NCBI GenBank assembly: GCA_023249255.1 | Contig: JAHFCY010000065.1 | Span: 1-14,273, forward strand | Source: Candidatus Lindowiibacteriota bacterium | Lineage (GTDB): Bacteria; Lindowbacteria; 2-12-FULL-62-27 | Length of the DNA: 14,273 nucleotides | Direction: 5' to 3' | Part shown: positions 1 through 14,273 of the stretch, piece by piece | Position numbering within the stretch: the stretch's first letter is position 1 | Layout: every line of letters begins with the position of its first letter | Made by a program: the position numbers and the translations under genes | The notes under the pieces: generated by a model | The model's input: only the letters and a program-made list of their open reading frames with translations | Database searches by the model: none | Told to the model about the DNA's origin: nothing

Positions 1-513
1 CTCGCCGTGAACGGCCGATTCCCGCGGAATTCCCTTCAGCCGATTTACGCGACGCGCCACCAGCCGCAGATAATCGGCGCATGAAAAACACGAGTCGATG
101 GCGAGCGGCAGGCTTGCCGCCTCCGGGTCGAACCGGCGCTGATTGAGTTCGGAAAAAAATCGCCTCGTTTCCAGAAACGCCGTCCGGTCGAATCCATCGA
201 ACGGCCGGCCATCGATGAATTCATATAATCCGGCGTGCCGCTTCGGGTCGCAGGCCAGAGCGGCCGGCGTCCATGCCAATCCACGCCGCCGCGCGAATCG
301 GCAAAATGAAAACTCGGCGCCCAGCCGGTCGCGCGGATCGTCGGGGCGGCGGAAATAAATTTTGAGCGCATATTTTCCGTCCCGGGTTGTGACGGCGTAG
401 ACGCGGTTGTTTCCGCCGCCGGTCAGAGGCTCGATCTCGATTTCACCCGCAGCGTCGCCGCCGGCCGCGCACGTTAAATTCCGCGCAAGATCGACGAGGT
501 CGTCCGAATTCAC
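1..513 (-). CDS. APH-fold phosphotransferase (small-molecule kinase), C-terminus cut by window edge
   Basis: An open frame runs from a GTG at 513 off the left edge, giving 171 codons without a stop. The translation shows a kinase N-lobe of the aminoglycoside/choline phosphotransferase type. A glycine-rich nucleotide loop (GGGNNRVY, residues 32-39) is followed by the ATP-binding lysine in YALK (K51), a likely helix-C glutamate in LGAEF (E67), and a hinge-like segment LYEFIDGRPF (96-105). The catalytic HGD-type loop would lie beyond the edge, so activity cannot be judged. The GTG lies 2 bases after the stop of the transketolase C-half; no clear Shine-Dalgarno is visible, and a start inside the upstream gene is possible. 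As the last visible gene of the SpsF-transketolase unit, it may phosphorylate a sugar or polyol intermediate (inference). Fold assignment is good; the substrate is unknown. Confidence 0.7.
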   Translation of the reverse strand, partial: MNSDDLVDLARNLTCAAGGDAAGEIEIEPLTGGGNNRVYAVTTRDGKYALKIYFRRPDDPRDRLGAEFSFCRFARRRGLAWTPAALACDPKRHAGLYEFIDGRPFDGFDRTAFLETRRFFSELNQRRFDPEAASLPLAIDSCFSCADYLRLVARRVNRLKGIPRESAVHGE

Positions 514-515
514 AT

Positions 516-1481
516 TCAGATGTCTGAACCGACCGGGGCGGGTTCCGCCGCGCCGTCGATCCTCCGGAGCGCATTCTCGATTTTTTCGGTGATGGCGTCC
601 GGCGTGAGGCCCATGCGCTCCCGCGCATATCCCTGTCCCCCCGCCTCGTGCAGGAAATCATCGCTCGAACCGATTCGAAGCAACCGCGCGGTGACGGAGT
701 CGTGGTCCGTGATCCATTCCGCCACAGCCCCGCCCAATCCCCCCATGCGGCTGTGCTCCTCCAGCGTTACCATCAGCTTGTGCCGCGAAAACGCCTCGCG
801 CAGAAAATTCTCGTCGAGCGGTTTGACGGTGTGCAGACTCACGACGCCCGCCGCGATGTTTCGTTCGGCCAGGTTGTCGGCGATCTGGACTGCGGTCGGC
901 AGCATGTTGCCCGTGCTGAGGAGGCAGACGTCCTCGCCGGTCCGCAGAGTCAGGGCGCGTCCCAGGACGAGATCGGGCGCGGTCTGATGAACAACCGGCT
1001 CGCCTTTTTTTCCCAGCCGCACGTAGACCGGCCCATCGTGCCGAAGGGCCGCCCGGATCGCCTGCCGCACTTCCATCGCGTCGCCGGGACACACAACGGT
1101 CATGCCGGGCATCATCCGAAGGATCGCGATGTCCTCGCAGGCGTGGTGGGTGATCCCGTTGGCGGCGTAAGAAAATCCGGCGCCGGTCCCCACGATGACC
1201 ACCGGCGCGTGGTGCCCGCAGACATCGACGCGGATCTGCTCGAGGCACCGCGTTGTGATGAAAGACGCGATGGTGTAGGCGACCGGCCGCAGGCCTGACA
1301 TGGCCATGCCGGCGGCCATCGTGATCATGTTGGGTTCCGCGACGCCGCAGTTGATGAACCGGTCCGGACAGCGTTCCTTGTATTTGTCGAAGAGACGGTT
1401 TCCAATGTCGCCCGAGAGGAGAACCAGCGTATCCATTTCCGGGGCGATCGCCGTGATTTCCGCCGCGAAGGCGTTTCGCAT
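516..1481 (-). CDS. Transketolase, C-terminal half (pyrimidine-binding and C-terminal domains)
   Basis: This 321-residue protein is the second half of a split thiamin-diphosphate transketolase. The pyrimidine-binding domain opens with SGDIGNRL (23-30) and carries GVAEPNM (46-52), where E49 matches the glutamate that activates the TPP aminopyrimidine. The THHACEDIAILR stretch (111-122) matches the histidine-rich active-site segment of the family. Residues from about 190 onward form the transketolase C-terminal domain. It must pair with the N-half encoded immediately upstream: the N-half stop and this ATG are one base apart, and GGGAG lies just before the start. It would transfer a two-carbon ketol unit between sugars. 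Its place in a glycan cluster suggests a dedicated sugar substrate rather than the central pentose phosphate pathway (inference). Confidence 0.9.
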   Translation of the reverse strand: MRNAFAAEITAIAPEMDTLVLLSGDIGNRLFDKYKERCPDRFINCGVAEPNMITMAAGMAMSGLRPVAYTIASFITTRCLEQIRVDVCGHHAPVVIVGTGAGFSYAANGITHHACEDIAILRMMPGMTVVCPGDAMEVRQAIRAALRHDGPVYVRLGKKGEPVVHQTAPDLVLGRALTLRTGEDVCLLSTGNMLPTAVQIADNLAERNIAAGVVSLHTVKPLDENFLREAFSRHKLMVTLEEHSRMGGLGGAVAEWITDHDSVTARLLRIGSSDDFLHEAGGQGYARERMGLTPDAITEKIENALRRIDGAAEPAPVGSDI

Positions 1482-1482
1482 G

Positions 1483-2289
1483 TCAGGCCACTCCCAATTC
1501 CGCTTTCGCCGCCGAAACTTCAGCCGCGTCCGGGATGCGGTAATGCCAGTTGTTGTCGTCTTCCATGAATGAAATGCCCTTGCCTTTCACCGTGTGCGCG
1601 ATCAGCGCGATCGGCTTGCCCGATCCGTCCGGGACGTTTTTCAGGAGGCGGGACAGCGCCGGCAAATCATGGCCGTCGACTTCGGATGCGCTCCATCCGA
1701 ACGCCTCCCATTTTTCCTTGAGGGGCTCCAGCGCCAGAATGTCGCAGCTTCGGCCGGTGGCCTGCCATTTGTTGAAATCGATGATCGCCACCAACCGCTC
1801 CAGCCCGTGCTTGGGCGCCAGCATCGCGGCTTCCCACACGGTGCCTTCATTACACTCGCCGTCGCTCAGGAGAACGAACACCCGATACCGCTCGCGGCGA
1901 ATTTTTGCAGCCAGGGCAAATCCAAGGCCCAGCGAAAGGCCGTGGCCGAGAGACCCGGTCGCGGCTTCCACTCCCGGCACGCACGCCGGCGCGGGATGCT
2001 CGGCGAGCGGACTGCCGGGTTTGGCGTATGTTTCCAGAAGCTCCTCCGGAAAAAATCCGCGCGCCGCGAGAACGGCGTACAGCGCCGTGGCCGCGTGGCC
2101 CTTGCTGAGAATGAACCGGTCCCGTCCGGGATCGGCCGGCCGCGCCGGGTCGATGTTCAAAATCCCGGAGTAGAGCGCAACCAGAATATCCACGCATGAC
2201 AGGGAAGACCCCAGATGGGCGGTGCGCGCCTGGTGGGATAGTTCAACCAATTTCGCCCGGATTCGCCGGGCGGTCAGATCCGAGGACAT
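1483..2289 (-). CDS. Transketolase, N-terminal half (TPP diphosphate-binding domain)
   Basis: This 268-residue protein is the diphosphate-binding half of a split transketolase. It has AHLGSSLS (24-31), LSKGHAATALY (61-71), TGSLGHGLSLGLG (111-123), and the thiamin-diphosphate/Mg motif SDGECNEGTVWEAA (142-155) ending in DFN (171-173). The first glycine of the usual GDG is serine here. I chose the ATG at 2289, which leaves 7 bases after the upstream gene; a frame-open ATG at 2343 would overlap that gene by 47 bases and add 18 residues with no family resemblance. A GGAGAAAGG purine run lies somewhat far upstream (about 15 bases). It works as a complex with the C-half encoded next. Split transketolases are common in bacteria and archaea; here the pair sits with a cytidylyltransferase and a kinase, which points to specialised sugar synthesis. 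Confidence 0.9.
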   Translation of the reverse strand: MSSDLTARRIRAKLVELSHQARTAHLGSSLSCVDILVALYSGILNIDPARPADPGRDRFILSKGHAATALYAVLAARGFFPEELLETYAKPGSPLAEHPAPACVPGVEAATGSLGHGLSLGLGFALAAKIRRERYRVFVLLSDGECNEGTVWEAAMLAPKHGLERLVAIIDFNKWQATGRSCDILALEPLKEKWEAFGWSASEVDGHDLPALSRLLKNVPDGSGKPIALIAHTVKGKGISFMEDDNNWHYRIPDAAEVSAAKAELGVA

Positions 2290-2296
2290 GAAATTT

Positions 2297-3172
2297 TTAT
2301 GCCTTTCTCCGTCTCGTGTGTAAAGACGGTGACGATCGGCCAATCCCGCACAATCGTTTCTCCAAATACGCCCGCGCTTTTTTCAGGTCCTGCGCGCCGC
2401 ACAGTCTCGCCGCCTCCGCGAGTTCCTCTTCAAGCGTGTCGAAGACCCTCTTCTGCGCAACCCTGGCGTTGATCAGGCGAAGCCAGGGTTTCCGTTTGAA
2501 GAGTTCGAGGATTTCCCGTGCGCCGAAAAACGGGATTTTCGCGTGGAGCTGATCGAAAACCGAGCACAGAAGCGCGTAATCCTCCTTCGTATCGAGGGTG
2601 ATCCTGAGATTCGAATCCCGAATAGATGCGTTCGCCGTCATGAGATGGTTCTTGAATTTTTCGGGGTTCTTCGCCAGGTGCAGGGTCACGTGCTCCTTTT
2701 CGAAGGCTGTCACGGCATGCCGGGCTGACGCGCGGAGAGCCTCGAACGACACGACCTCCACATTCAGGCCCGTCGGATACCGCACCGTCCGGGTGTAATC
2801 GTTTTTCATTTCCCGATGGCGGTCGACCGCCGCGTCGATCACGCCGGCATCGAGGCACGGATTGTCGCCGGTGAGCCTCACGATCACATCGATCCCATGT
2901 TCCCCGGCGGCCCGGACGTATCGGGACAGAACATCCGCCGCGTCGCCCCGGAAACACGGGACCTTCAATTTCCGGCACAAGGCCGCGATGCCGTCATCCT
3001 CCCCGCGCGTGGTCGTCGCGACGATCACCGCGTCGAGCCTCCGGGACTTCCCCGCCCGCCGGATGATGTGTTCCAGAACCGAAGTCTTCGCGCCGTAAGG
3101 AAGCGGCAGCAAAACTTTGCCGGGTAATCGCACAGAACCGTGCCTTGCCTGAATGATGCCGCCCGTTTTCAT
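2297..3172 (-). CDS. spsF: SpsF-type cytidylyltransferase (CMP-sugar synthetase-like)
   Basis: This 291-residue protein belongs to the SpsF/acylneuraminate cytidylyltransferase family, which activates acidic sugars with CTP. The nucleotide-binding signature is IIQARHGSVRLPGK (6-19); the family norm is QARMGSTRLPGK, so H11 and V14 are unusual. Further family features are VATTTRGEDD (51-60), FRGDAADVLSRY (74-85), RLTGDNP (99-105, metal/substrate region), PTGLNVEV (133-140) and EKEHVT (158-163). An upstream in-frame ATG at 3190 would add six residues; 3172 fits the family N-terminus better, though neither has a strong ribosome site. About 110 C-terminal residues extend past the core nucleotidyltransferase fold. 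It heads the minus-strand unit. With the NeuB-like and PseG-like genes across the divergent promoter it completes an SpsE/F/G-like set, so CMP-nonulosonate synthesis is the likely role. Confidence 0.8.
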   Translation of the reverse strand: MKTGGIIQARHGSVRLPGKVLLPLPYGAKTSVLEHIIRRAGKSRRLDAVIVATTTRGEDDGIAALCRKLKVPCFRGDAADVLSRYVRAAGEHGIDVIVRLTGDNPCLDAGVIDAAVDRHREMKNDYTRTVRYPTGLNVEVVSFEALRASARHAVTAFEKEHVTLHLAKNPEKFKNHLMTANASIRDSNLRITLDTKEDYALLCSVFDQLHAKIPFFGAREILELFKRKPWLRLINARVAQKRVFDTLEEELAEAARLCGAQDLKKARAYLEKRLCGIGRSSPSLHTRRRKA

Positions 3173-3203
3173 GCGCGGCCGTGATACCATTCACGGCCGG
3201 TCG

Positions 3204-3300
3204 CGTCCATGACTGCGAAAAGTCGTCCATCGTCCTCCGAATCTTGATTTCTCCCGGGTGGACAACTAGCATCGGCAAAGCGTTTGTCTTGGTCGTCCAT
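3204..3300. repeat. Three CGTCCAT boxes in the divergent intergenic region
   Basis: CGTCCAT occurs at 3204-3210, 3224-3230 and 3294-3300, all in the same orientation. The last two share the longer word GTCGTCCATC (3222-3231 and 3292-3301). The spacings are 20 and 70 bases, both multiples of ten, so all would lie on roughly the same face of the helix. Such boxes between divergent operons could be regulator sites, but seven-base repeats in about 130 bases may also arise by chance. Confidence 0.3.
3244..3272 (+). promoter_or_regulatory. Candidate sigma70-like promoter for the plus-strand operon
   Basis: TTGATT (3244-3249) and TAGCAT (3267-3272) are separated by 17 bases, each matching 4 of 6 consensus positions. 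The pair sits 52 bases before the first plus-strand start codon, in the only real intergenic gap between the divergent units. The match is weak and sigma-factor preference of this organism is unknown, so this is a candidate only. Confidence 0.25.
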
Positions 3301-3324
3301 CACGCCTGAGGGGGATCACCACTG

Positions 3325-4602
3325 ATGCCGGCGGTCACGTTCTTGTCGATCCCGTCAAATCCGAATCACCCGCTTTCTCCGGACTTGCTGCGGGCGCTGG
3401 GCGGTGTTGACGAGCTGATCGAGGTTGGAAATGAGGAGCCATGCCTGAAGGTTGCGGCGGAGCGGTTTTGCATTCCGTTCCGTCATGTCCGATCCGCGCG
3501 CGGATTGGCGCGGCGGCTGAATCTGGGAATTTCCTTTTCGTCCGGCGAGTGGATCGCCGTCAGTTTCGGCGACGAGATTTTTGCTCCAGGCTGGATCACC
3601 GCCTTGAAGGGCCGTCTGGCCTCCTGCAAGGCCGGCGCGCTTCTTGTGCGCCCGGATTCCGGGCCGGGCTATCCGCTCGTCGTGGCCCGGCGGGAGGCGT
3701 TCGAGCATGGCGCCGTCGATGAGGGATTCCCCTGCCAACGGCTCGCCGCGCTTCACTGGGCCTTTCACATTCTCGGGCGTGTGTCCCGCAACGGCGGTCT
3801 CGACGAATGGAAGTGCGCACTCGTCGACGCCCGCCTGCCTCCTGTCGAACATCCGATGGCCGCGCTGATCGAGCTGGGGCGCGATCTCGATGCGCCGTGC
3901 CGGGAGGCCCTGTTGCGCGCGTGTCTGGATTCGCCCTCGGCGGTGGAGCAGGATTTGCTCTTCCAACTCGAGCGGACCCGTTTGTCGGCGTCGCGTCTCG
4001 ACGGCTCGGCCTATCGGCGTCCGGCCGGATACAATCCGAAAAAATTCTGGGAATCGCAGGTCGGCGACTACGTCAAGTGGGAGGTCTATCAGCCGGATGA
4101 GCCGGAAATCGAGGAGATGGTGACCCGAACTTCGCCGCAATCGGTATTGGAACTTGGCTGTGGCGCCGGGCGTAACACCCGTTATTTTTCCGCCGCCCAA
4201 CGCTATGTCGGCGTCGATCTGTCGATGACGCTTCTTCAGCGCGCGCGGGAACGGCAGGAGCAGAATTCGCGCGGCATTGTCTGCGGAGATATTTCAGCGC
4301 TGGGATTCGCCGGCGTCAGTTTCGATCTGGTCTTCGCCGATTCCACGCTTCAGCACGTCACGCCGGACCGCATTGAGCGATGCGTGGCCGATGCCGTCCG
4401 TGTTTCCTCCCGCTACATCGGCCTCATCGAATACACGCGGGAAATCGACGCGGCCGGGACCTGGTTTCAGCAGATCCATCTGTTTCCGCACAACTATCCG
4501 GACCTTTTTCATCCCTACGCCGATCTCGTCATTCGCCGCGAAACGACCCGTCGCGTTCATCCGGCGGTCAAAGAGATGTTCCTGTTCGAAAAGAGGGCAT
4601 GA
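3325..4602 (+). CDS. Degenerate GT2-like domain fused to class I SAM-dependent methyltransferase
   Basis: This 425-residue protein has two parts. Residues 1 to about 190 resemble a GT-A (family 2) glycosyltransferase: a beta-strand start, then RRLNLGISFSSGEWIAVSFGDEIFAPGW (split here as 64-75 and 76-90), where a DxD-like centre would be expected but GDE (82-84) is found. This suggests weak or lost transferase activity. From about residue 245 there is a Rossmann methyltransferase: motif I VLELGCGAGRNTRYF (274-288), the acidic YVGVDLS strand, and FDLVFADSTLQHV as motif IV region. The start has GAGGGGG 10 bases upstream. It is the first gene of the plus-strand operon, and its stop is one base before the next start. 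O- or N-methylation of the glycan or its precursor is likely (inference); the target is not visible in sequence. Confidence 0.75.
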   Translation: MPAVTFLSIPSNPNHPLSPDLLRALGGVDELIEVGNEEPCLKVAAERFCIPFRHVRSARGLARRLNLGISFSSGEWIAVSFGDEIFAPGWITALKGRLASCKAGALLVRPDSGPGYPLVVARREAFEHGAVDEGFPCQRLAALHWAFHILGRVSRNGGLDEWKCALVDARLPPVEHPMAALIELGRDLDAPCREALLRACLDSPSAVEQDLLFQLERTRLSASRLDGSAYRRPAGYNPKKFWESQVGDYVKWEVYQPDEPEIEEMVTRTSPQSVLELGCGAGRNTRYFSAAQRYVGVDLSMTLLQRARERQEQNSRGIVCGDISALGFAGVSFDLVFADSTLQHVTPDRIERCVADAVRVSSRYIGLIEYTREIDAAGTWFQQIHLFPHNYPDLFHPYADLVIRRETTRRVHPAVKEMFLFEKRA

Positions 4603-4603
4603 G

Positions 4604-6841
4604 ATGATCGCGGTGGAGGCGACGGAGTGCGGGACCGGATTGAAGGAGGGCATGGGGACATGTTGCGGCAGTTTTGGCGAATTGCTCTACGGCGTTTTGT
4701 CCGGCGACATCCCGTTTCTCGTCAATCTGAAAATCCGGAACCGGTCATGCGTGCGGCTGAGGCTGCGGTCTCCCGCCTATTCGCCGCTGAAAGAAATGAA
4801 CTTCGCGAGGTCTTACGAGCGCTTCGCCAAATCTTACAAAGTCATCCGGCACATCCTGACCGATTTTGGAATCCATAGCGACCCCTATCTCGAAATCGAA
4901 TCCGACTTGCCGGTCGGCGCGGGACTGGGATCGAGCGAAGCTGACATGGTGGCGAGTATCCGGGCCCTGGGAGCGGCGCTGTCGATCGCCGTGAAACCGG
5001 ACTATGTCTCGCGCGTGCTTCGGGAAATCGAACCGCACAATGGCGTCCATTACGCCGGCACAGCCGTCTACGAACCGGTGAGCGGGAAATTACTCGCGCA
5101 ATATGATTCCGTGCCAGCCATCAATATTCTCGGGTTGGAATGTCCGCCCCCGACCGATGTGTTCGCCCCCGACCTCCCGCCTGATGCGTTCACGGAAGCC
5201 GACAGGGTCCGCTACAGGGAATTGCTGGAAGACGTGAAAGAGGCGCTGGCGGCGAAGGACATCGCGCGCGTCGGACGGATATCGACCGAGGGCGTCCGCA
5301 TGCGGCATCGGATTCGTCCAAGGGAGGACTTTGAACTTGCGCTTGATCTGATGCGGCGAACCGGCGCGGTCGGCGTCGTCGCCGCGCACACAGGCTCCTC
5401 TCTGGGCCTGATGTACGAAAAAGACAGGCCAGACACGCAGGCGATCGAAGCCATGGTCCGTCCGTCGCTCGGCGCCGCCCGGATCCGCTGGTTCGAAACG
5501 GTCGACGCCGATTCATCCGATGAAGGCGAAATCATGTGGCCGGGAACCCGGCCGGCCCCGGCGATGTCCCATCGCCCGCCCGTCCGCGTATTTCTGAAAG
5601 AAGCCGTTGTCGGCCGGCCCGCCGCGGCCTGGTCGACCAAATACAGCTTGAAGTGCGCGGCCTGCGGCTGGAGTCACGTGGAGGACGCCTATTACATCGG
5701 CTGTCCCGACTGCGGCGGGCTTCTTGAGGTTGCGTTGAACGAAATTCCGAAAAATCCGATCGACCGGCGTTACACGTCCATCTTCAAATATCATCCGGTC
5801 ATGCCGTACGATCCGTCCATTGAGGCCATCCTCGGGTTCGAGAACATCGACGACACGCCGGTCGTTTTCGCCGAGGCTCTCTCCAACCGGCTCGACATTG
5901 AACTCCACTTCAAGGATGAAACCGTCATGCCCAGCGGCACTTGGAAGGACAGGGAGGGATTCGTATCCCTGTACCGCCTGCTTCGGAGCGGCGTGACCGA
6001 TCTGGTCGTGTTTTCGTCCGGAAATTCCGCGACGTCTCTTGCGCGCTCTGCCACGGCCGTGAACGGCCCGCGGTTGCACTTCGTGATTCCCCTCGCCTCC
6101 CGCCGCCGGCTCGAAACCTATCCGCAGTTTTTCAGCTCGGACCGCGTGAACGTGACGTTGTTCGAGGGCAGCAATGACGAGTGCATCGATCAGGCCCGCC
6201 GGCTCGCCGCCGAGCTGGGCTATCAGATCGAAGGCGGATTCACCAATTACGCGCGCCGCGAGGGTCTCAAACTTCTGGCGCTCGAAGTCATCCTCGGATG
6301 GGGCCGCAAGATCGACTGGTACGTTCAGGCGGTGGCGGGCGGCATCGGCGTCTATGGATTTTTCAAGGCGCACCAGGACCTCGGATTGGCGGATCAATGC
6401 CCGAAAATCCTTGGCGTCCAGCCCGCCATCTGCGCCCCGATGGTGAACGCGTGGAAAGCCGGCGCCTCCGCGCTCGATGAGGAGTGGGTGCCGCAGAAAA
6501 TCATTCCGTCGAAATACGTGCGCGTCCTGCGCACCCGCCGGCCCGCGGACAGCTATCCGGTTTTGAAAAACATCATGGACAGAATCGGCGGACGGTTCGA
6601 GTCCGCGTCGGACGAACAAATTCATGAGGCCCTGCGGATGTTTTACCTCGATCCCTATTACCGGGAAGTTTGGCGCAACGAGAAACGGCTGGTCGGCCTC
6701 GAGCCGGCCACGGCGCTGGCGGGCATCGTGAAAGGCGTCGCCGAGGGATACATCCGGCGCGGCGAACGCGTTCTTCTGAACGTGAGCGGCGCCGCGAAAA
6801 TCGGAGACGTCGATCTGGCGTGGATCTCGGACCTCCTATGA
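4604..6841 (+). CDS. PduX-like GHMP kinase fused to threonine/cysteate-synthase-like PLP enzyme
   Basis: This 745-residue protein is one uninterrupted frame. Residues 1-315 are a GHMP kinase of the PduX (L-threonine kinase) type: GTCCGSFGELLYG (18-30), the ATP-binding loop PVGAGLGSSEAD (103-114) and IEPHNGVHYAG. After a linker near 316-330 comes a fold-type II PLP enzyme. It starts with a four-cysteine zinc ribbon (C351, C354, C367, C370). The PLP-binding lysine lies in SGTWKDRE (K448), the asparagine loop in SSGNSAT (N474), then EGGFTNYARREG (543-554), QAVAGGIGVYG (575-585), PMVNAW (612-617) and a terminal NVSGAAK loop (about 726-732). Family logic: the kinase phosphorylates a hydroxy-amino acid and the PLP domain replaces or eliminates the phosphate. 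The ATG at 4604 has AGAGGG upstream; ATG 4652 has AGGAGG only 2 bases away, too close. Substrate and product are unknown; a homoserine kinase/threonine synthase fusion is the conservative alternative. Confidence 0.8.
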   Translation: MIAVEATECGTGLKEGMGTCCGSFGELLYGVLSGDIPFLVNLKIRNRSCVRLRLRSPAYSPLKEMNFARSYERFAKSYKVIRHILTDFGIHSDPYLEIESDLPVGAGLGSSEADMVASIRALGAALSIAVKPDYVSRVLREIEPHNGVHYAGTAVYEPVSGKLLAQYDSVPAINILGLECPPPTDVFAPDLPPDAFTEADRVRYRELLEDVKEALAAKDIARVGRISTEGVRMRHRIRPREDFELALDLMRRTGAVGVVAAHTGSSLGLMYEKDRPDTQAIEAMVRPSLGAARIRWFETVDADSSDEGEIMWPGTRPAPAMSHRPPVRVFLKEAVVGRPAAAWSTKYSLKCAACGWSHVEDAYYIGCPDCGGLLEVALNEIPKNPIDRRYTSIFKYHPVMPYDPSIEAILGFENIDDTPVVFAEALSNRLDIELHFKDETVMPSGTWKDREGFVSLYRLLRSGVTDLVVFSSGNSATSLARSATAVNGPRLHFVIPLASRRRLETYPQFFSSDRVNVTLFEGSNDECIDQARRLAAELGYQIEGGFTNYARREGLKLLALEVILGWGRKIDWYVQAVAGGIGVYGFFKAHQDLGLADQCPKILGVQPAICAPMVNAWKAGASALDEEWVPQKIIPSKYVRVLRTRRPADSYPVLKNIMDRIGGRFESASDEQIHEALRMFYLDPYYREVWRNEKRLVGLEPATALAGIVKGVAEGYIRRGERVLLNVSGAAKIGDVDLAWISDLL

Positions 6842-7863
6842 CGGTCTGCGCGATCCGAGAGGATTCGGCGGAGGGCCTGGATCGCGCCGGTCTGCTCCCG
6901 TGGCTGGAACGGACCCGCGCCGAGTGGTTTCTCGAATATCTGGCGCCGTCCGCCGGGGCGAAGGCCCGGCATTTGTATCAGCGATTCATGTCGGTGGCGC
7001 GCAATCCGGCCGGCCGGGTCACTGTCCATGCGGAAGGCGGACCGGGGGAGATTCAGGCGGCGCTCGCAGTGGAACGGCTCGCGTGGGACAGCCTGCATTT
7101 CGGAATGGAATGCGCTCGGCTCGGCCCGTACTGCACCGCGGAGAATGTGGACCCGTCCCGTCTGGCGTCGATTCACGCGGAGATGCTTGAAGACGCCATC
7201 GCCTGGACCGCCGCAAAAAATTTCCGGCTTCTCCAGCGGCGTCTCCTGGCGTCGAACGCCGATGAAATTCGCGCGCTGGAACGTCTGGGATTCAGTCAGG
7301 CGGATCGGTTGATCACCCTGCATGCCGTGTTGCGGGATGGCGCAGAGAGCGCCTGCTCCGATCCGCCGTATTTCCGCCAGGCCGCGCCGGACGATCTTCC
7401 CGCGCTGGCGCGGATGGCGCGGGGCGCGTTTCCCCTGAGCCGGTTTGTCCGCGACGAGCGCCTGCGCGAGGCTGGTGGCGCGGAAGTCTACGTCAAGTGG
7501 ATCGAAAATCTGGTCGTCGCGCGCCGCAGTCGCCTGGATGTGAAGGCCGCCGAAACGGAACTTGTCGTGTGCGCCGTCGACGGGCGTCCCGCGGGATGTC
7601 TGGCGTTTCGACGCGACGGGACTGTGGACGATCTTCTGGGTTGGCCCTTCGCCACGCTGGAGCTGGTTCTGGTGGATCCGGAATTCCGGGGGCGCGGAGT
7701 CGGCCGTCGGCTGGTCGAAGAGGCGATGCGCAGATGCCGGTGCGCCGGCGTCCGCGGGATGGAGGCGTCGACGTGGAGCGGCGCGGATGCGGCCTTGCGC
7801 CTCTATCAGAGCACTGGATTCCAACCCAGGGCGGAACTCCTGACCTTGCACCGCTGGATTTAA
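6838..7863 (+). CDS. Two-domain GNAT N-acetyltransferase, WecD/SpsD-like
   Basis: This 341-residue protein is about twice the length of a single GNAT domain. The C-terminal half holds the clear acetyl-CoA signature ELVLVDPEFRGRGVGRRLVEEA (motif A loop RGRGVG at 284-289), followed by LRLYQSTGFQPRAE (320-333). The N-terminal half has LAWDSLHFGMECARL (81-95) and a second GFSQADRL end (151-158), like the WecD-type sugar acetyltransferases in which a degenerate first GNAT fold precedes the active one. EVYVKWIENLV (216-226) also fits that family. The start overlaps the previous stop as ATGA, so the genes are translationally coupled; an ORF opening at 6670 is just an upstream extension through the PLP gene. 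Likely role: N-acetylation of an amino sugar precursor, as for SpsD, WecD or PseH. The exact sugar is not known. Confidence 0.8.
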   Translation: MTVCAIREDSAEGLDRAGLLPWLERTRAEWFLEYLAPSAGAKARHLYQRFMSVARNPAGRVTVHAEGGPGEIQAALAVERLAWDSLHFGMECARLGPYCTAENVDPSRLASIHAEMLEDAIAWTAAKNFRLLQRRLLASNADEIRALERLGFSQADRLITLHAVLRDGAESACSDPPYFRQAAPDDLPALARMARGAFPLSRFVRDERLREAGGAEVYVKWIENLVVARRSRLDVKAAETELVVCAVDGRPAGCLAFRRDGTVDDLLGWPFATLELVLVDPEFRGRGVGRRLVEEAMRRCRCAGVRGMEASTWSGADAALRLYQSTGFQPRAELLTLHRWI

Positions 7864-7870
7864 GAACGAG

Positions 7871-8881
7871 ATGACCGTTTACGATCGGATCCGTGACGCG
7901 AGCCGCGTGTTTGTTGTTGCGGAAATTGGATCGAACCATAACGGCGATCTGAACACCGCGCTCCGCCTCATGGACGCGGCGCGCTCCGGGGGCGCCGACG
8001 CCGTCAAGTTTCAAAGTTTTCTGGCTGACCATCTGCTTTCGCGGGACCATCCGGATCATGCGATGTTGAGGAGACTGGAAATGCCCCGGGAGTGGTATCC
8101 CCGGCTGAAAGCGGAGGCTGCGTCGCGCGGGATGGTATTCTTTTCGACCGCGAGCAACGAGGTCACGCTGTCGTGGCTCGGGGAGATCGGCGTCGAATTG
8201 TACAAGATCGCCTCTTCCAACCTCACCCATCTGCCGCTCCTCCGAACGGTCGCCGCCGCGGGAACCCCGATTATCCTCTCCACCGGCATGGCCTCGCCCG
8301 GCGTCATTCAGGAGGCGGTTGAGACCCTGACGGAGTCCGGGAATGACCGCCTCTGCATCCTGCATTGCGTCAGTCGATATCCGACGCGTCCAGAAGATGT
8401 TCATCTGAGGTTCATGCAGAGCCTTCAAGAATTGTATCCCTATCCCGTCGGATTTTCAGACCACACGCCCGACCTGGGCATCGCGGTTGCCGCGGCGGCA
8501 TTGGGCGCGCGCGTCATCGAGAAACATTTGACGCTCGACCGAAACATGGAGGGGCCCGATCATCACTTCGCTCTCGAGCCGGACCGCTTCGCGGATATGG
8601 TCCGTCAGATCCGGGACGTCGAACGTGCGCTCGGGAATCCATGGAAGCCCGCCGATCCCGCGGACTCGGCCGCGGCCGCACGCTACTGGCGCAGCCTTCA
8701 TGCGGCGCGGGACCTTCCCGCGGGAACCGTGCTGGGCCGGAACGACTTCGTTGTAATCCGTCCGAATGACGGGCTTCATTCCCGCCACGCCGACGATGTC
8801 ATCGGCCTGCGTCTGGCCCGAGGCCTCAAGGCGGGCCGGCCGATCACGTGGGAGGCGTTCCGCGATGAACGCGCTCTTTAA
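7871..8881 (+). CDS. neuB: NeuB/PseI/LegI-family nonulosonic acid synthase
   Basis: This 336-residue enzyme condenses phosphoenolpyruvate with a 2-acylamino hexose to make a nine-carbon acidic sugar. The TIM-barrel part shows AEIGSNHNGD (17-26), KFQS (46-49), FSTASNE (91-97), LSTGM (136-140), LHCVSRYPT (164-172), GFSDHTPD (194-201) and EKHLTLDRNMEGPDH (217-231). H198 and H219 correspond to the two metal-binding histidines of NeuB. Residues from about 270 form the SAF (antifreeze-like) domain, RSLHAARDLPAGTVL (274-288) and VIRPNDGLH (295-303). Length matches the family (about 335-375). The gene starts 7 bases after the GNAT stop with AAGAACGAG upstream. Sialic, legionaminic and pseudaminic synthases cannot be told apart safely by eye; the PseG-like gene nearby favours a diamino sugar product. 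Confidence 0.92.
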   Translation: MTVYDRIRDASRVFVVAEIGSNHNGDLNTALRLMDAARSGGADAVKFQSFLADHLLSRDHPDHAMLRRLEMPREWYPRLKAEAASRGMVFFSTASNEVTLSWLGEIGVELYKIASSNLTHLPLLRTVAAAGTPIILSTGMASPGVIQEAVETLTESGNDRLCILHCVSRYPTRPEDVHLRFMQSLQELYPYPVGFSDHTPDLGIAVAAAALGARVIEKHLTLDRNMEGPDHHFALEPDRFADMVRQIRDVERALGNPWKPADPADSAAAARYWRSLHAARDLPAGTVLGRNDFVVIRPNDGLHSRHADDVIGLRLARGLKAGRPITWEAFRDERAL

Positions 8882-10154
8882 TCGTCCATCTGTTCATCAG
8901 TCCGTTCAGACGATCGCCGCCGATCCGCGTCTTCGTCGCGTCTTCGAATCTCCCGTGCCGGCCGTCGTGCTCTTCCCGGTTTCCCACGCCGTCGCCTTCA
9001 GCGTCATTCGCGCGTTGCGGGACCAGTCCATTCCCATTCTGGCGGTCGATTTCAAGGAACAGGCCGCCGGCCTCTATTCGCGAAACGTCACGTCCCTGCT
9101 CCTGCCGAATTTCTACCGGTCGGAAACCGAATTCGTCGCGGGTATGATGGCCATCGGCCGGTGCTTCCGCGAGCGGCCCGTCCTTTTTTTCGTCGATGAC
9201 GACGATCTGATCCTGTCTCTGAAGACACAGGAGGACTTCGAGCGATATTACCGTCTGCCTCTGTCCCCCTGGCCCATTGTGGAATCGGTGATGAACAAGG
9301 GCCGATTGTATCGAATCTGTCAGGAGCGGGGATATCCGATTCCCGACACGTGGTTCGCATCCTCCCTGGACGACGTCGACCGACAAAAAAATAATCTGAA
9401 ATTTCCCTGCATCATCAAGCCGACGTATTCGACGCGCTTTCGGCAGGCGTTCGGTGTGAAAGCCCGCCGCTTTGACGATTTTCCGGCTCTGCGGAAATTC
9501 GCGCGCCGCGTCATCGAGGCCGGAATCGAGTTTGTGATTCAGGAATTCATCGCCGGCGCCGCCGATTCGCTCTACACTTACGCGGCCTATTCGAATGACG
9601 AAGGCAGGGTGATCGGCGGATTCACCGGGAGAAAACTCCATCAATTCCCGCCTGATTTCGGAACGTGCCGTCTTGCGGAAAGCGTGAATGATCCGGAACT
9701 CGAACGCGCGGGGCGGGAGCTGATCGGGATTCTGCGCTACCGCGGAATTTCGTTGATCGAATACAAGCGCGATCCCGTCGGCCGTTTTCGCCTCATCGAA
9801 ATCAATCCGCGGCCCGGCGACTGGCCCGAGAGTCTGGCGCAGGAATGCGGCGCGAACATTGTCTGGATGGCCTACCGCGCGGCGACTGACCGGCCTGTGG
9901 ATCCGGCGATCGGCCGCGGCGTCGGGGTCAAATGGGCGAATCTGGCGGAGGATTTCTACTATTGCGTTCGGGGATACCGGCTGCTCGGCTACCCGACCGC
10001 GCACCGGGGATTCTTCGGGTGGCTGAAGGACATCCGGGGTCTGCACGCTGAAGCGTTTTTTTCCTGGCGGGATCCCGTGCCGGCCTGGGTCCGGCTGAAG
10101 GGCATGTGCCGGGAATTCGCCGAGCGCGAGCGGCGGCTCGTCCGTTCGCTCTAG
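8865..10154 (+). CDS. ATP-grasp carboxylate-amine ligase
   Basis: This 429-residue protein has the three ATP-grasp subdomains. ILAVDFKEQAAGLYSRNV (58-75) is the N-terminal Rossmann-like region, as in D-aspartate ligase-like enzymes. CIIKPTYST (182-190) supplies the ATP-binding lysine K185, VIQEFIAG (224-231) the adenine hinge, and LIEYKRD (297-303) with EINPRPGDW (312-320) the Mg-binding glutamates and asparagine (E299, E312, N314). Such enzymes activate a carboxylate as acyl phosphate and join it to an amine. The ATG at 8865 has GGAGG 9 bases upstream and overlaps the NeuB gene by 17 bases; an in-frame ATG at 8766 lies deep in that gene and is rejected. In this operon it could attach an amino acid or other acid to an amino group of the sugar (inference). 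Neither substrate can be read from sequence. Confidence 0.82.
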   Translation: MNALFNRPSVHQSVQTIAADPRLRRVFESPVPAVVLFPVSHAVAFSVIRALRDQSIPILAVDFKEQAAGLYSRNVTSLLLPNFYRSETEFVAGMMAIGRCFRERPVLFFVDDDDLILSLKTQEDFERYYRLPLSPWPIVESVMNKGRLYRICQERGYPIPDTWFASSLDDVDRQKNNLKFPCIIKPTYSTRFRQAFGVKARRFDDFPALRKFARRVIEAGIEFVIQEFIAGAADSLYTYAAYSNDEGRVIGGFTGRKLHQFPPDFGTCRLAESVNDPELERAGRELIGILRYRGISLIEYKRDPVGRFRLIEINPRPGDWPESLAQECGANIVWMAYRAATDRPVDPAIGRGVGVKWANLAEDFYYCVRGYRLLGYPTAHRGFFGWLKDIRGLHAEAFFSWRDPVPAWVRLKGMCREFAERERRLVRSL

Positions 10155-10157
10155 ACC

Positions 10158-11150
10158 ATGAGAGTTCTCTTCATCGTTGAGGCGGGCGCGGCGTACGGCA
10201 TGGGGCATCTCATGCGATGCCGCGTTTTGATGCGCGAGATGAAGCGCCGCGGCGTGGACGTCGATCTCTGCCTGCGCGGCGATGCCGTCGTCCCCGAAGC
10301 ATGCGCGTGGCCGGCGCGCATCGACGCTCAATCTTATGACTGGATCGTCATCGATGGATACGGATTTTTTGCGGAGGGGCTGTGCGAAAATTTGAAGCGG
10401 TCCGGCGCGCGCCTGCTGGTCATTGACGACCTGCCCCGCCCGCACGCCGCGGACGTGATTTTGAATCCGAACATGGAATCGCCCGGCGATAACGCGAATG
10501 GAGCCGGAGTCAATGGCCGTCGCCTCTTCGGTCCCCGCTACGCTCCGGTCGCGGAGGACTATGGACAAACGCGATGGGATAACCTAAACCACAAATCGTT
10601 GGAGCGAATTCTGATTTCCTGCGGAGGCGTGGACCGGATGGGCCGAACGGAACAGATTCTGGCTGATATCGAAGACTGGGACGCGCGGCTCGATTTGGAC
10701 GTCGTGGTCGGTCCCTGGCATCCATTCGAAAAAGACTTGCGGGCCTACCGCGGCCGGCACCGGCTCGAGATTCACAAGGCGCCGGACGGCCTCGCGTCGC
10801 TCATGGAACGCGCCGACCTCATGATCTCCGCCGCCGGATCCACCGTATGGGAAGCCTGTGCGGTGGGAGTCCCGCTCGTCGCAATCCGCATTGTCGAGAA
10901 CCAGACCGAACCCTGGCGAACCCTTCAACGGTTCAAGGCCGCGCTGTGCATGGACGCGTCGGATCTGTCGTCCGGCGAGTCGTCGAGCCGCCTGACGGGT
11001 CTCTTGCGCGAAGCCTCGCGCGAATCCGTGCGGTCGGAACTGTCCGCGCGGGGCCGGTCGCTTGTGGACGGCCGCGGCGCGGAGCGAACGGTCGACGAGA
11101 TGCTGGCCGTATCCGAATCGGCGGCGTATGGCGCGGGTCCTCGTCGTTAG
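10158..11150 (+). CDS. pseG: PseG/SpsG-like UDP-sugar hydrolase
   Basis: This 330-residue GT-B fold protein resembles PseG, which removes UDP from UDP-2,4-diacetamido-2,4,6-trideoxy-altrose before NeuB/PseI acts, and SpsG of the spore-coat operon. GMGHLMRC (14-21) places H17 exactly where PseG has its catalytic histidine. DWIVIDGYGF (61-70), LLVIDDLPRPHAADVILNPN (86-105), LFGPRYAPV (123-131), ISCGGVD (153-159), and SAAGSTVWEACAVGVPLV (224-241) with ENQ (247-249) are the conserved nucleotide-binding segments. The length is closer to SpsG than to Campylobacter PseG (about 275). It starts 3 bases after the ATP-grasp stop. With NeuB it implies that the nonulosonate precursor is carried on UDP. 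The LegG/NeuC epimerases are a different family and do not show this motif set. Confidence 0.87.
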   Translation: MRVLFIVEAGAAYGMGHLMRCRVLMREMKRRGVDVDLCLRGDAVVPEACAWPARIDAQSYDWIVIDGYGFFAEGLCENLKRSGARLLVIDDLPRPHAADVILNPNMESPGDNANGAGVNGRRLFGPRYAPVAEDYGQTRWDNLNHKSLERILISCGGVDRMGRTEQILADIEDWDARLDLDVVVGPWHPFEKDLRAYRGRHRLEIHKAPDGLASLMERADLMISAAGSTVWEACAVGVPLVAIRIVENQTEPWRTLQRFKAALCMDASDLSSGESSSRLTGLLREASRESVRSELSARGRSLVDGRGAERTVDEMLAVSESAAYGAGPRR

Positions 11151-11823
11151 CGGCTCCCCGGGCGACGAAGTCCTGGGATGCGGCGGAACCCTCGCGCTCC
11201 ACGCGCGCCGCGGGGATGAAATCCGCGTGGCGGTTCTTGGAGACGGCTGGACGTCCCGCATGCCGTCGCATGCAAAGGGAATCGAAACGGTCGACTTGGA
11301 TGTCTTGGAAACCCAGGAGCGCGAGGCCCTGCGCATCCTCGGCGTTCAGACCATCGAGTACCACCGCTATGCCGACAACCGCTTTGACGTCATCCCCCTT
11401 CTGGATCTGGTCAAAACGGTGGAAAAGATCAAGGAGACCTTTGCGCCCGACATCGTCTACACCAACTCGCCTTTCGACCTCGGCATCGACCAGGAGCGGA
11501 CCTGCCGCGCGGTCGTCACGGCCTTTCGGCCCCTCCCCGGCGACAATCGAACGGCGCTGTATTGTTTCGAAGTTCTCTCGTCAACCGGATGGAGGGCCGA
11601 GGAGGCCGCGCGCGTGTTTTCGCCGAACGTCTTTGTCAATATCCGCGAGACGCTGGACGCCAAACTTGCCGCGTTCAAGCGCCTCAGTTCGGAGGTCCGC
11701 GCCTGGCCGCATTCGCGGTCGAGCGAATCGATCGATCATCTCGCCCGAAGCCGCGGAGCCTTCGCCGGATTGGACGCCGCCGAAGCGTTCATGCTGCTCC
11801 GGGAAGTGAGGGACGTCAAATAG
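11128..11823 (+). CDS. PIG-L/LmbE-fold paralog lacking zinc ligands and catalytic base (probable pseudoenzyme)
   Basis: This 231-residue protein has the complete PIG-L/LmbE layout: an N-terminal strand MARVLVV, DEVLGCGGTLA (13-23), NRFDVIP (84-90), CFEVLSSTGW (146-155), FSPNVFVNI (164-172) and PHSRSSES...AGLDAAEAF. But the defining HPDDE motif reads SPGDE (10-14): the first zinc histidine is serine and the general-base aspartate is glycine. The second metal site, usually TH..GD...DH, reads TNSPFDLGIDQ (112-122), so those histidines are asparagine and glutamine. It therefore should not bind zinc or deacetylate as its family does. The frame is intact and follows its neighbour closely, so it is not simply decayed. 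The ATG at 11128 overlaps the PseG-like gene by 23 bases. It may assist the active paralog next door (inference). Confidence 0.85.
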   Translation: MARVLVVSGSPGDEVLGCGGTLALHARRGDEIRVAVLGDGWTSRMPSHAKGIETVDLDVLETQEREALRILGVQTIEYHRYADNRFDVIPLLDLVKTVEKIKETFAPDIVYTNSPFDLGIDQERTCRAVVTAFRPLPGDNRTALYCFEVLSSTGWRAEEAARVFSPNVFVNIRETLDAKLAAFKRLSSEVRAWPHSRSSESIDHLARSRGAFAGLDAAEAFMLLREVRDVK

Positions 11824-11834
11824 CCGCCCGGCCT

Positions 11835-12518
11835 GTGATTCTGGTGGTCGCTGCGCATCCGGACGATGAAGTCCTCGGATGCGGGGCCACGATCCGAAAG
11901 CGCGTCACGGAAGGCCTGGATGTCCATATCGCAATTCTGGGAGAAGGCGTGACGTCGCGATACGCAAAACGGGAGGAGGCCGACCCGAAACTCGTCGATC
12001 ATCTCCGCCGCCAGGCCTTGAAGGTTTCCCGGATGCTTGGCGCCAAATCTCTTCACACCTACGGCCTGCCGGACAACCGGTTCGATACGGTTCCCATGCT
12101 CGACATCGTCAAGCAAATTGAAATCCTCATTCGGAAATTTCGCCCGCGCGTGATTTACACGCACCACGGCGGCGATCTCAATATCGACCACGGGATCATT
12201 CATCGGGCCACGCTGGCCGCGGCGCGCCCCGGTTTGGCGTCGTCGGTCCGCGAGATCTACAGTTTTGAAGTGGCGTCGTCGACCGAATGGTCCTTTGCGC
12301 AGGTTCAGCCCGTTTTTCGGCCCACCGTCTTTGTCGATGTCTCGGCCACGCTCGCGGTAAAACTCAAGGCCATGGCCGTCTACGACGGAGAGACCCGCAA
12401 ATTTCCCCATCCCCGGTCCCTCGATGCCCTCAGGATTTCGGCCCAAAAGTGGGGCAGTGTCGCGGGCGTGAAGGCGGCTGAAGCATTCGAACTGATCCGG
12501 TCTGTCGAGTCGGATTGA
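11835..12518 (+). CDS. PIG-L/LmbE-family N-deacetylase, intact active site
   Basis: This 227-residue protein is a PIG-L/LmbE deacetylase, a zinc enzyme that removes acetyl groups from N-acetyl amino sugars. AHPDDEVLGCG (7-17) supplies the zinc ligands H8 and D11 and the general base D10. THHGGDLNIDH (109-119) supplies the last zinc histidine, H119, in the DH pair. FEVASSTEW (144-152), FRPTVFVDV (161-169) and KFPHPRSLDALR (189-200) are family C-terminal features. I chose the GTG at 11835, since the family begins a few residues before the HPDDE strand; it is 11 bases after the preceding stop. A longer open frame from 11562 only reads through the other paralog out of frame. It is the close homologue of the degenerate gene before it. 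Its substrate is probably an acetylated amino sugar of this pathway. Confidence 0.88.
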   Translation: MILVVAAHPDDEVLGCGATIRKRVTEGLDVHIAILGEGVTSRYAKREEADPKLVDHLRRQALKVSRMLGAKSLHTYGLPDNRFDTVPMLDIVKQIEILIRKFRPRVIYTHHGGDLNIDHGIIHRATLAAARPGLASSVREIYSFEVASSTEWSFAQVQPVFRPTVFVDVSATLAVKLKAMAVYDGETRKFPHPRSLDALRISAQKWGSVAGVKAAEAFELIRSVESD

Positions 12519-12541
12519 ATGAAAAGCGGGGGCAATCCGCG

Positions 12542-12706
12542 ATGATGGCATTTCTGAAACGGTTGGTTCGGTACGTTCCGATCATTCTGTCGCAGGAACT
12601 GTCCGTTGAAACGATTTTCAAATTGATCGCGCTCCTGGCCCATGAACCCTGTCCCGACGGTTCCTCCTCCCGCCGCCCCTCCATTTTCGTCTACACGATG
12701 TATTGA
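12542..12706 (+). CDS. Short ORF of unknown function, possible gene remnant
   Basis: A 54-codon frame begins at tandem ATGs (12542, 12545), 23 bases after the deacetylase stop, with GCGGGGGC about 10 bases upstream. The first 35 residues look like real protein: an amphipathic, basic, leucine/isoleucine-rich segment (FLKRLVRYVPIILSQELS, then ETIFKLIALLAHEP). The rest (GSSSRRPSIFVYTMY) looks like read-through. This could be a small peptide, or the 5' end of a larger gene cut off where the carbamoyltransferase gene converges. I do not recognise a family, and a chance ORF is not excluded. Confidence 0.3.
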   Translation: MMAFLKRLVRYVPIILSQELSVETIFKLIALLAHEPCPDGSSSRRPSIFVYTMY

Positions 12707-12733
12707 TCCCCGCGCGGCCGGCGAACCCGGCTC

Positions 12734-14272
12734 TCATCTCTCAACGATAAACGGCCCCATCGCGAGCACGTCGATCGCCGTCCACTCGAAGGTCCGCAGG
12801 GCGTCGGCCGGCGTTTCGACAATGGGCTCGCCGCGCCGGTTGAAGGAAGTGTTGAGGAGCGCATAGACGCCGGTTTGATCGCCGAAGGATCGGATCAGTT
12901 CCGCAAACAATGGATTGGCCGCGGCGTTCACCACCTGAACCCGCGCCGTGCCGTCCACGTGCGTCACGGCTTCGAGATTCGCCCGGCGTTCCGGGTGGAC
13001 CGGCACGACGCACAGCATGAATTGATACGGCCACGGATCGGCGTCGCCGTTCGGAAATGAAAAATACTCCGGCGCATGAGAGCGCAGCGTGGCCGGTGCG
13101 AAGGGGCGAAAGAGTTCACGGAATTTCACGCGGGCGTTGACCACTCCCTTCATCCGGATGGACCGCGGGTCCGCCAGGATGCTGCGGTGACCCAGCGCCC
13201 GCGGCCCGAATTCGGACCGGCCCTGAAACCATCCGACGACTTTCCCCCCGGTCAGCGATTCGGAAACGCGTCGGACGAGTTCGTCCTCCGAGCGCGTCCG
13301 CTCAAAGGCGCAGCCGTTCTGCTGCAAAACCGCGGCCATGTCGTCGACGGAGTACTCCGCGCCCAGATAGGCGTGCTCCATGACGCGCGGGGACATGCGG
13401 GGGTGAATCGCGTGGTGGACCGCGAGCGCCGCGCCGGCCGACGCGCCGCTGTCTCCTGCGGCGGGTTGAATGTAGACGTGATCGAAACCGGATTCGGCGA
13501 GAATCCGGCCGTTGGCGGCGCTGTTGTAGGCGACGCCGCCCGCGATGCACAGCGACGCCATCCCGCTCCGCCGCCGTAATCCCTTCGCGAATCCGAGCAG
13601 GACTTCTTCGACGACTTCCTGAACGCTGGCGGCGACGTCCGCGTAATATTGGCTGCGCTCCGCCGCCCCCCGCGATCCGCCTCCGCCGTCGAGCTCCCGA
13701 TCGAATCGTGGAATGTAGAACGGTTCTTCAGGCGGCCGGGGATCGCCGAAGAGATCGAGAAATTTCTGCGTGTAGCTTCGTTCGGTCGAATATTCATAGG
13801 AGAAGTGGTCCATGTCGAGTTCGAATCCCTCCGGCGAGACCTCCCGGAAAAGTTTCCAGACGCGATCCATGTATTTGGGTTCGCCGTAGGGAGCCATGCC
13901 CATGACTTTGTACTCGCCCTCGTTCACTTCGAATCCGAGAAACGCCGTGAAGGCGCTGTAGAGAAGGCCGATCGAATGCGGAAACATCACGCTGGCCGAC
14001 CGCTCGAACGCCGAGCGCCGCGCGGTCCCGAGCGTGGTCGTGATCCATTCGCCCACGCCGTCCACCGTCAGGATCGCCGCCTCCGAAAACGGCGAGCAAT
14101 AGAAGGAACTCGCCGCGTGGGACAGATGATGCTCCGAGAAAAGAACTTTCCGTTTGGGGACGCCGAGCCGCGTCCGGATGGTTTCCGATATCCAGAGTTT
14201 CTCCCGCCCCCAACTGCCGAGGATTTCACTGAAAATGGAATGGGAGCGCGGGAAATGTTTGGCGAGCGTGGC
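12734..14272 (-). CDS. O-carbamoyltransferase (NodU/CmcH/TobZ family), N-terminus cut by window edge
   Basis: The frame is open from the right edge to a TGA at 12734-12736, giving 512 residues of a family usually near 570-620, so roughly 60-100 N-terminal residues are missing. These enzymes move a carbamoyl group from carbamoyl phosphate, through carbamoyl-AMP, to a hydroxyl. The N-terminal Kae1-like fold shows the metal-binding EHHLSHAASSFYCSPF, with EAAILTVDGVGEW close behind. EYKVMGMAPYGEPKYMD and the CIAGGVAYNSAANGRI and PAAGDSGASAGAAL segments follow. The YrdC-like C-terminal domain has GWFQGRSEFGPRALGHRSILADPR, VKFRELFRPFAP and LLNTSFNRRGEPIVETPADAL. A GTG at 14065 is not the start, because family sequence continues upstream of it. 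It converges on the plus-strand operon and probably O-carbamoylates the glycan. Confidence 0.93.
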   Translation of the reverse strand, partial: ATLAKHFPRSHSIFSEILGSWGREKLWISETIRTRLGVPKRKVLFSEHHLSHAASSFYCSPFSEAAILTVDGVGEWITTTLGTARRSAFERSASVMFPHSIGLLYSAFTAFLGFEVNEGEYKVMGMAPYGEPKYMDRVWKLFREVSPEGFELDMDHFSYEYSTERSYTQKFLDLFGDPRPPEEPFYIPRFDRELDGGGGSRGAAERSQYYADVAASVQEVVEEVLLGFAKGLRRRSGMASLCIAGGVAYNSAANGRILAESGFDHVYIQPAAGDSGASAGAALAVHHAIHPRMSPRVMEHAYLGAEYSVDDMAAVLQQNGCAFERTRSEDELVRRVSESLTGGKVVGWFQGRSEFGPRALGHRSILADPRSIRMKGVVNARVKFRELFRPFAPATLRSHAPEYFSFPNGDADPWPYQFMLCVVPVHPERRANLEAVTHVDGTARVQVVNAAANPLFAELIRSFGDQTGVYALLNTSFNRRGEPIVETPADALRTFEWTAIDVLAMGPFIVER

Positions 14273-14273
14273 C

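Follow-up and report, generated by a model that had tools for sequence, protein, structure and literature searches.

The window, a 14,273-nucleotide stretch (contig C285, positions 1-14273), belongs to a draft genome of 3.35 Mb, which is 88.7% complete and assembled into 366 contigs; the searchable set contains only three genomes of its phylum. Eight genes on the + strand, extending from 3325 to 12518, are separated by gaps of no more than 7 bp or overlap for a short distance. The first is predicted from Pfam matches to encode a glycosyltransferase-2-like protein with a SAM methyltransferase domain (3325..4602) and ends 1 bp upstream of a fusion gene (4604-6841), which in turn overlaps by 4 bp with a gene for a WecD-like GNAT acetyltransferase (6838..7863; Pfam, NCBIfam). 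These are followed by genes for a NeuB-family nonulosonic acid synthase with a SAF domain (7871..8881; Pfam, NCBIfam), a putative ATP-grasp ligase-like protein resembling carbamoyl phosphate synthase (8865..10154; all NCBIfam matches below curated cut-offs), a PseG-type UDP-sugar hydrolase (10158..11150; TIGR03590, 156.3 bits against a cut-off of 153.55) and two tandem PIG-L family deacetylases (11128..12518; Pfam). On the - strand, a split transketolase, its N-terminal and C-terminal halves encoded separately (516-2343), lies beside a CMP-sugar-transferase-like gene (2297-3190), both identified with Pfam and NCBIfam, and a carbamoyltransferase-like gene, judged by eye, is found at the contig end. 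As judged from its predicted products, the operon is a nonulosonic acid operon. The sequence-only reading had placed the fusion gene in such a cluster, and its close linkage to NeuB and PseG within the operon agrees with this.

Translation of the window shows the fusion gene (4604-6841, + strand) to be a single stop-free frame of 745 aa (P0001). Residues 1-300 (4604..5503) form a PduX-type GHMP kinase domain, with homology over approximately residues 14-300, as identified by Pfam, comparison with 101 relatives, profiles, a tree and a structural model. Residues ~346-745 (5639..6838) form a fold-II PLP enzyme of the threonine synthase/cysteate synthase group, identified by Pfam, alignments, a tree and a model. 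The linker between them (residues 301-345; 5504..5638) is rich in Pro, Ala and Arg and lies outside both homologies, as seen from alignments, composition and a frame check. Pfam matches were obtained to GHMP_kinases_N at residues 78-144 (E 3.3e-8; 34.1 bits, cut-off 22.3) and to PALP at residues 414-729 (E 8.7e-36; 124.2 bits, cut-off 35). The halves were modelled apart with AlphaFold2 using alignments of their relatives, the interface between the domains lying outside the models; confidence was high for the kinase half (pLDDT 87.0, pTM 0.86) and the PLP half (pLDDT 87.4, pTM 0.88) and low at the linker ends. The frame, the Pfam matches and the half models confirm the fusion of an amino-acid kinase and a fold-II PLP enzyme in one frame, first noted as two domains joined without a stop. 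Kinase and PLP enzyme are separate genes in relatives, and at the expected gene boundary ATGA occurs in another frame (5520-5523) along with in-frame ATG codons at 5534 and 5564; these features would suit a metagenome assembly error in which two adjacent genes were joined and a lost base hides the stop. Such an error requires an uncorrected indel, and is disfavoured because the linker of ~45 residues, of typical linker composition, stays open in the coding frame; both remaining + strand frames are closed around the junction, with stops at 5521, 5595 and 5649. We regard an assembly error as very unlikely.

Profiles for kinases of PLP operons, for PduX-type kinases encoded beside CobD/CbiB-like genes (the cobalamin-linked set) and for ThrB were built in this analysis. 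The kinase half scored 213.6 bits with the first, 120.8 bits with the second and 7.5 bits with the third, the ThrB profile being a small one; by profile it thus belongs to the PduX-type family, scoring far better there than with ThrB or other GHMP kinases. No kinase model of NCBIfam reached its cut-off: mevalonate kinase gave 30.9 bits and ThrB 23-24 bits, with the TIGR00191 match to ThrB homoserine kinase at 23.4 bits against a cut-off of 168.25. In the kinase tree, the window kinase falls inside a clade of PLP-operon kinases (33 members, support 100/99), apart from the cobalamin set; its branch is very long, measuring 3.35 where the median is 0.35. Its model is a complete GHMP fold, matching mevalonate kinase (PDB 6mde; Z 22.7, rmsd 3.6, 273 residues aligned) and homoserine kinase (PDB 1fwk; Z 21.9, rmsd 3.3, 272 aligned). 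The earlier assignment of this half as PduX-like and not ThrB is therefore upheld by the profile scores and the tree. In motifs and in its score with the cobalamin-operon members it resembles PduX-type L-threonine kinases, but it differs from them in its placement in a separate clade of amino-acid-biosynthesis operons, in its fusion to a PLP enzyme and in the alteration of Q29, D146 and S230.

The PLP half possesses four zinc-ribbon cysteines (C351, C354, C367 and C370), the PLP lysine K448 within a retained SGTWKDR motif, and the loop SSGN (471-474) within SSGNSATS, as well as the motifs EGGxxNxARREG (543-554), QAV (575-577) and S728-G729. With the PALP match, K448, S471-N474 and the fold, it belongs among the fold-II PLP enzymes. 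Threonine synthase (ThrC) has the same fold, zinc ribbon, KDR lysine motif and SxGN loop, but the match to its NCBIfam model is low (PRK08197; 96.3 bits against a cut-off of 303), and the phosphate region NSxNPxRxEGQK of threonine synthases is replaced by EGGFTNYARREGLK (EGGxxNxARREGLK). In the tree, ten rows (three cysteate synthases, five proteins of an unnamed set, one other protein and the window) split from the threonine synthases with support of 100/99; the PLP half is on a long branch, its exact place is unsure, and it is not inside the cysteate synthase branch. The stretches EGGxxNxARRxG, QAV and PMxxAWxAG are common to the PLP half and the cysteate synthase CapA2 (PDB 9k3c), and are also partly present in the unnamed set. 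Comparison of the model with the PDB gave a tie between threonine synthase 2c2b (Z 41.0, rmsd 2.7, 382 aligned) and CapA2 9k3c (Z 40.5, rmsd 2.5, 368 aligned, 24% identity). Sequence comparison thus sets this half apart from ordinary threonine synthases: it lies outside their clade and carries cysteate-synthase active-site stretches, and its nearest relatives are cysteate synthases and the unnamed related group. Of the initial description as a threonine synthase relative using O-phospho amino acids, the substrate class still fits, as characterised members of the group use them, while the closest kinship lies with cysteate synthases and the unnamed group.

These results bear on whether the protein could be a bifunctional homoserine kinase/threonine synthase. 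The genome (88.7% complete) has no ThrB over the family cut-off, and the solved structures closest to the PLP half include threonine synthases. Both other members of the family likewise have no ThrB over the cut-off, yet carry no fusion, and a separate ThrC (contig C190), grouping with the ThrC of a family member, is encoded in the same genome. Neither half gave its best profile match to ThrB or ThrC, the outcome that would have spoken against the sequence-only reading; given the low ThrB score (7.5 against 213.6 bits) and ThrC score, the changed phosphate region, the place of the PLP half outside the ThrC clade and the separate ThrC, we rejected this alternative as most improbable. All three genomes of the phylum (G000, G001 and G002) are without ThrB over the family cut-off and possess ThrC-type genes; another homoserine kinase may be used in them.

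A cysteate synthase proper, which would convert serine to cysteate with sulfite as the nucleophile and so provide a sulfonated amino acid to decorate a surface sugar, is likewise to be weighed. Among NCBIfam models, the PLP half matches cysteate synthase TIGR03844 best, and the stretches and structural similarity common to CapA2 point the same way. The match, however, is only 110.3 bits against a cut-off of 324.9, the PLP half is on a separate branch from the cysteate synthases, its SGTWKDR lysine motif is that of threonine synthases (the cysteate synthases of this analysis carry CTFKQ or CTFKE there), and the window is without sulfur genes. This identity is considered unlikely.

Relatives of the kinase were taken as the best 80 of 331 loci from a scan of the contig collection with one peptide pattern, with neighbourhoods of ~7 kb on each side of the kinase where the contig allowed. 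A fold-II PLP gene was identified near the kinase in 66 of these best 80 of 331 loci (within 400 bp in 45 of the 66); eleven unrelated regions (8.6-19 kb), searched with PLP references of this type, had none. Kinases of this family beside fold-II PLP enzymes are therefore a widespread arrangement of separate genes, and the pairing is not new. An argininosuccinate-lyase-like gene is present in 44 and an ATP-grasp gene in 48 of the same best 80 loci. Operons of Streptomyces, Rhizobium and Bacillota combine a kinase of the same clade with an SbnA-like PLP gene and an argininosuccinate-lyase-like gene, often with an ATP-grasp gene, and we take them to resemble diaminobutyrate pathways. Such kinase-PLP gene sets serve to make diaminobutyrate for peptide antibiotics. 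A literature search found no paper on phosphothreonine-dependent diaminobutyrate synthesis. The window differs from these operons in that kinase and PLP enzyme are fused, the PLP half is threonine/cysteate-synthase-like and not SbnA/cysteine-synthase-like, and no lyase is present; the one good argininosuccinate-lyase-like match in the genome is on another contig. An SbnA-type 2,3-diamino acid pathway, or a diaminobutyrate-type pathway as in the kinase relatives, was rejected on the grounds of the different PLP enzyme and the lack of a lyase in the window.

No second protein with kinase and PLP enzyme in one frame was found, either among the best 80 of 331 loci or in 385 other genomes. Among the 386 genomes, only the window has a long kinase frame, of 870 aa when its upstream codons are counted; the other kinase frames measure 292-438 aa. 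An 802-aa frame in the same genome was discarded as a second fusion, as it comprises a ThrC of 409 aa and an adjoining ThiF/MoeB-like gene. The earlier remark that no such fusion was known in a nonulosonic acid cluster agrees with these searches for the fusion itself and does not extend to the pairing, which is common as separate genes: what is unusual here is the only fusion, the type of PLP enzyme and the sugar-cluster setting.

A fusion is a strong hint of two enzymes working in sequence, and separate gene pairs already offer a precedent for a kinase that feeds a fold-II PLP enzyme. We give an even chance to the reading that the protein is bifunctional, first phosphorylating serine or threonine and then exchanging the phosphate for another group, to yield a beta-substituted amino acid for the nonulosonic acid pathway. 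The PduX-family domain, of which family, fold and most motifs are observed, would transfer phosphate from ATP to the hydroxyl group in the side chain of serine or threonine. The PLP domain, with its fold, PLP lysine, asparagine loop and stretches shared with cysteate synthase, would then eliminate the phosphate to give aminoacrylate or aminocrotonate, and a nucleophile would be added at the beta carbon. The fusion would keep both steps together and might permit direct hand-over (channelling) between them. As the gene order suggests, the beta-substituted amino acid would probably be joined to the nonulosonic acid of the operon, and the ATP-grasp protein may be what joins them. This two-step reading draws on the single frame, the confident models, the kinase profile scores, the PLP neighbours in 66 of the best 80 of 331 loci, the stretches shared with CapA2 and the tight linkage to NeuB and PseG. 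It is further supported by the one characterised system consulted, in which sulfonolipid synthesis starts from L-phosphoserine via cysteate synthase (PMC11211663). Together, the fusion and the PLP neighbours at those loci suggest that PLP beta-replacement enzymes receive phospho-amino acids from kinases of this family, and the fusion provides one protein in which this supply may be tested. It also points to nonulosonic acids decorated with an amino acid in a phylum about which little is known.

The ATP-grasp ligase-like protein is a candidate user of the amino acid made by the fusion. NeuB, PLP or kinase genes were found beside its homologues in none of eleven neighbourhoods; these homologues were therefore rejected as a guide to the acceptor, and their setting speaks against the two-step reading. 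So, by sequence, do the altered kinase residues, the cysteate synthase score of 110 bits against 324.9 and the long branches of both halves, the kinase residues being the main weakness.

Compared with 101 relatives, the kinase half keeps the motif residues G22, G25, E26, G30, K76, G105, G107, S110-S111, A113, D114, E143, G257, H262, G264 and G268. Three residues invariant in all 101 relatives are replaced (Q29Y, D146N and S230G), as are K106 (K in 97 of 101, here A) and T186 (T in 100 of 101, here V). D146 may be the catalytic base, given the resemblance of its motif to the catalytic-Asp segment of mevalonate kinase, and if this equivalence holds D146N would matter; in profile alignment with ThrB, which is weak and ambiguous in this region, D146 pairs with the Asn of HPDN. 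A literature search found no paper on PduX active-site residues. Because the three replaced residues are otherwise invariant, the kinase may act on a different substrate or with reduced activity, which is a serious caveat. The kinase half could then have lost or changed its role and no longer phosphorylate free serine or threonine, serving as a different kinase or as a binding or scaffold domain, with the PLP half drawing phosphoserine or some other substrate from the cell. The five replacements and the very long branch favour this explanation, but the ATP-site motif GxGLGSSEAD, E26, K76, E143 and HTGSSLG are all kept and the modelled GHMP fold is complete; a degenerate kinase is disfavoured because the loss of these features too would be expected in a dead domain. 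We consider such a change of role less likely than the two-step reading. A more specific form of the two-step reading, in which one polypeptide makes a serine or threonine O-phosphate and replaces it with a nucleophile to give an amino acid new to surface sugars, which is put on a nonulosonic acid, the altered kinase residues marking a substrate other than threonine, is possible and is offered tentatively.

Several long PLP proteins were recorded among the relatives and were rejected as further kinase fusions. In those of L113 and L145 (496-498 aa) the extra part is a C-terminal carrier-protein domain. The PLP relatives at L113 and L145 (G014 and G162) and at L150 and L151 (G099 and G365) adjoin a LarA-like gene of the lactate racemase family, with AMP-ligase and acyltransferase genes close by, and these loci look like an uncharacterised lipid or acyl-amino-acid pathway. 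A 544-aa PLP protein of the same wider group (L144:6467-8098; G332) is fused to a response-regulator receiver domain, its gene coming after a very large frame of 1877 aa. Beside the kinase, PLP enzymes were also found fused to other partners: in Kitasatospora (L013:8911-11154) an SbnA-like PLP enzyme is joined to an ATP-grasp ligase, a long frame also seen in several other loci, and in Paraburkholderia sabiae (L017:9229-10851) the PLP enzyme is joined to a GNAT acetyltransferase domain.
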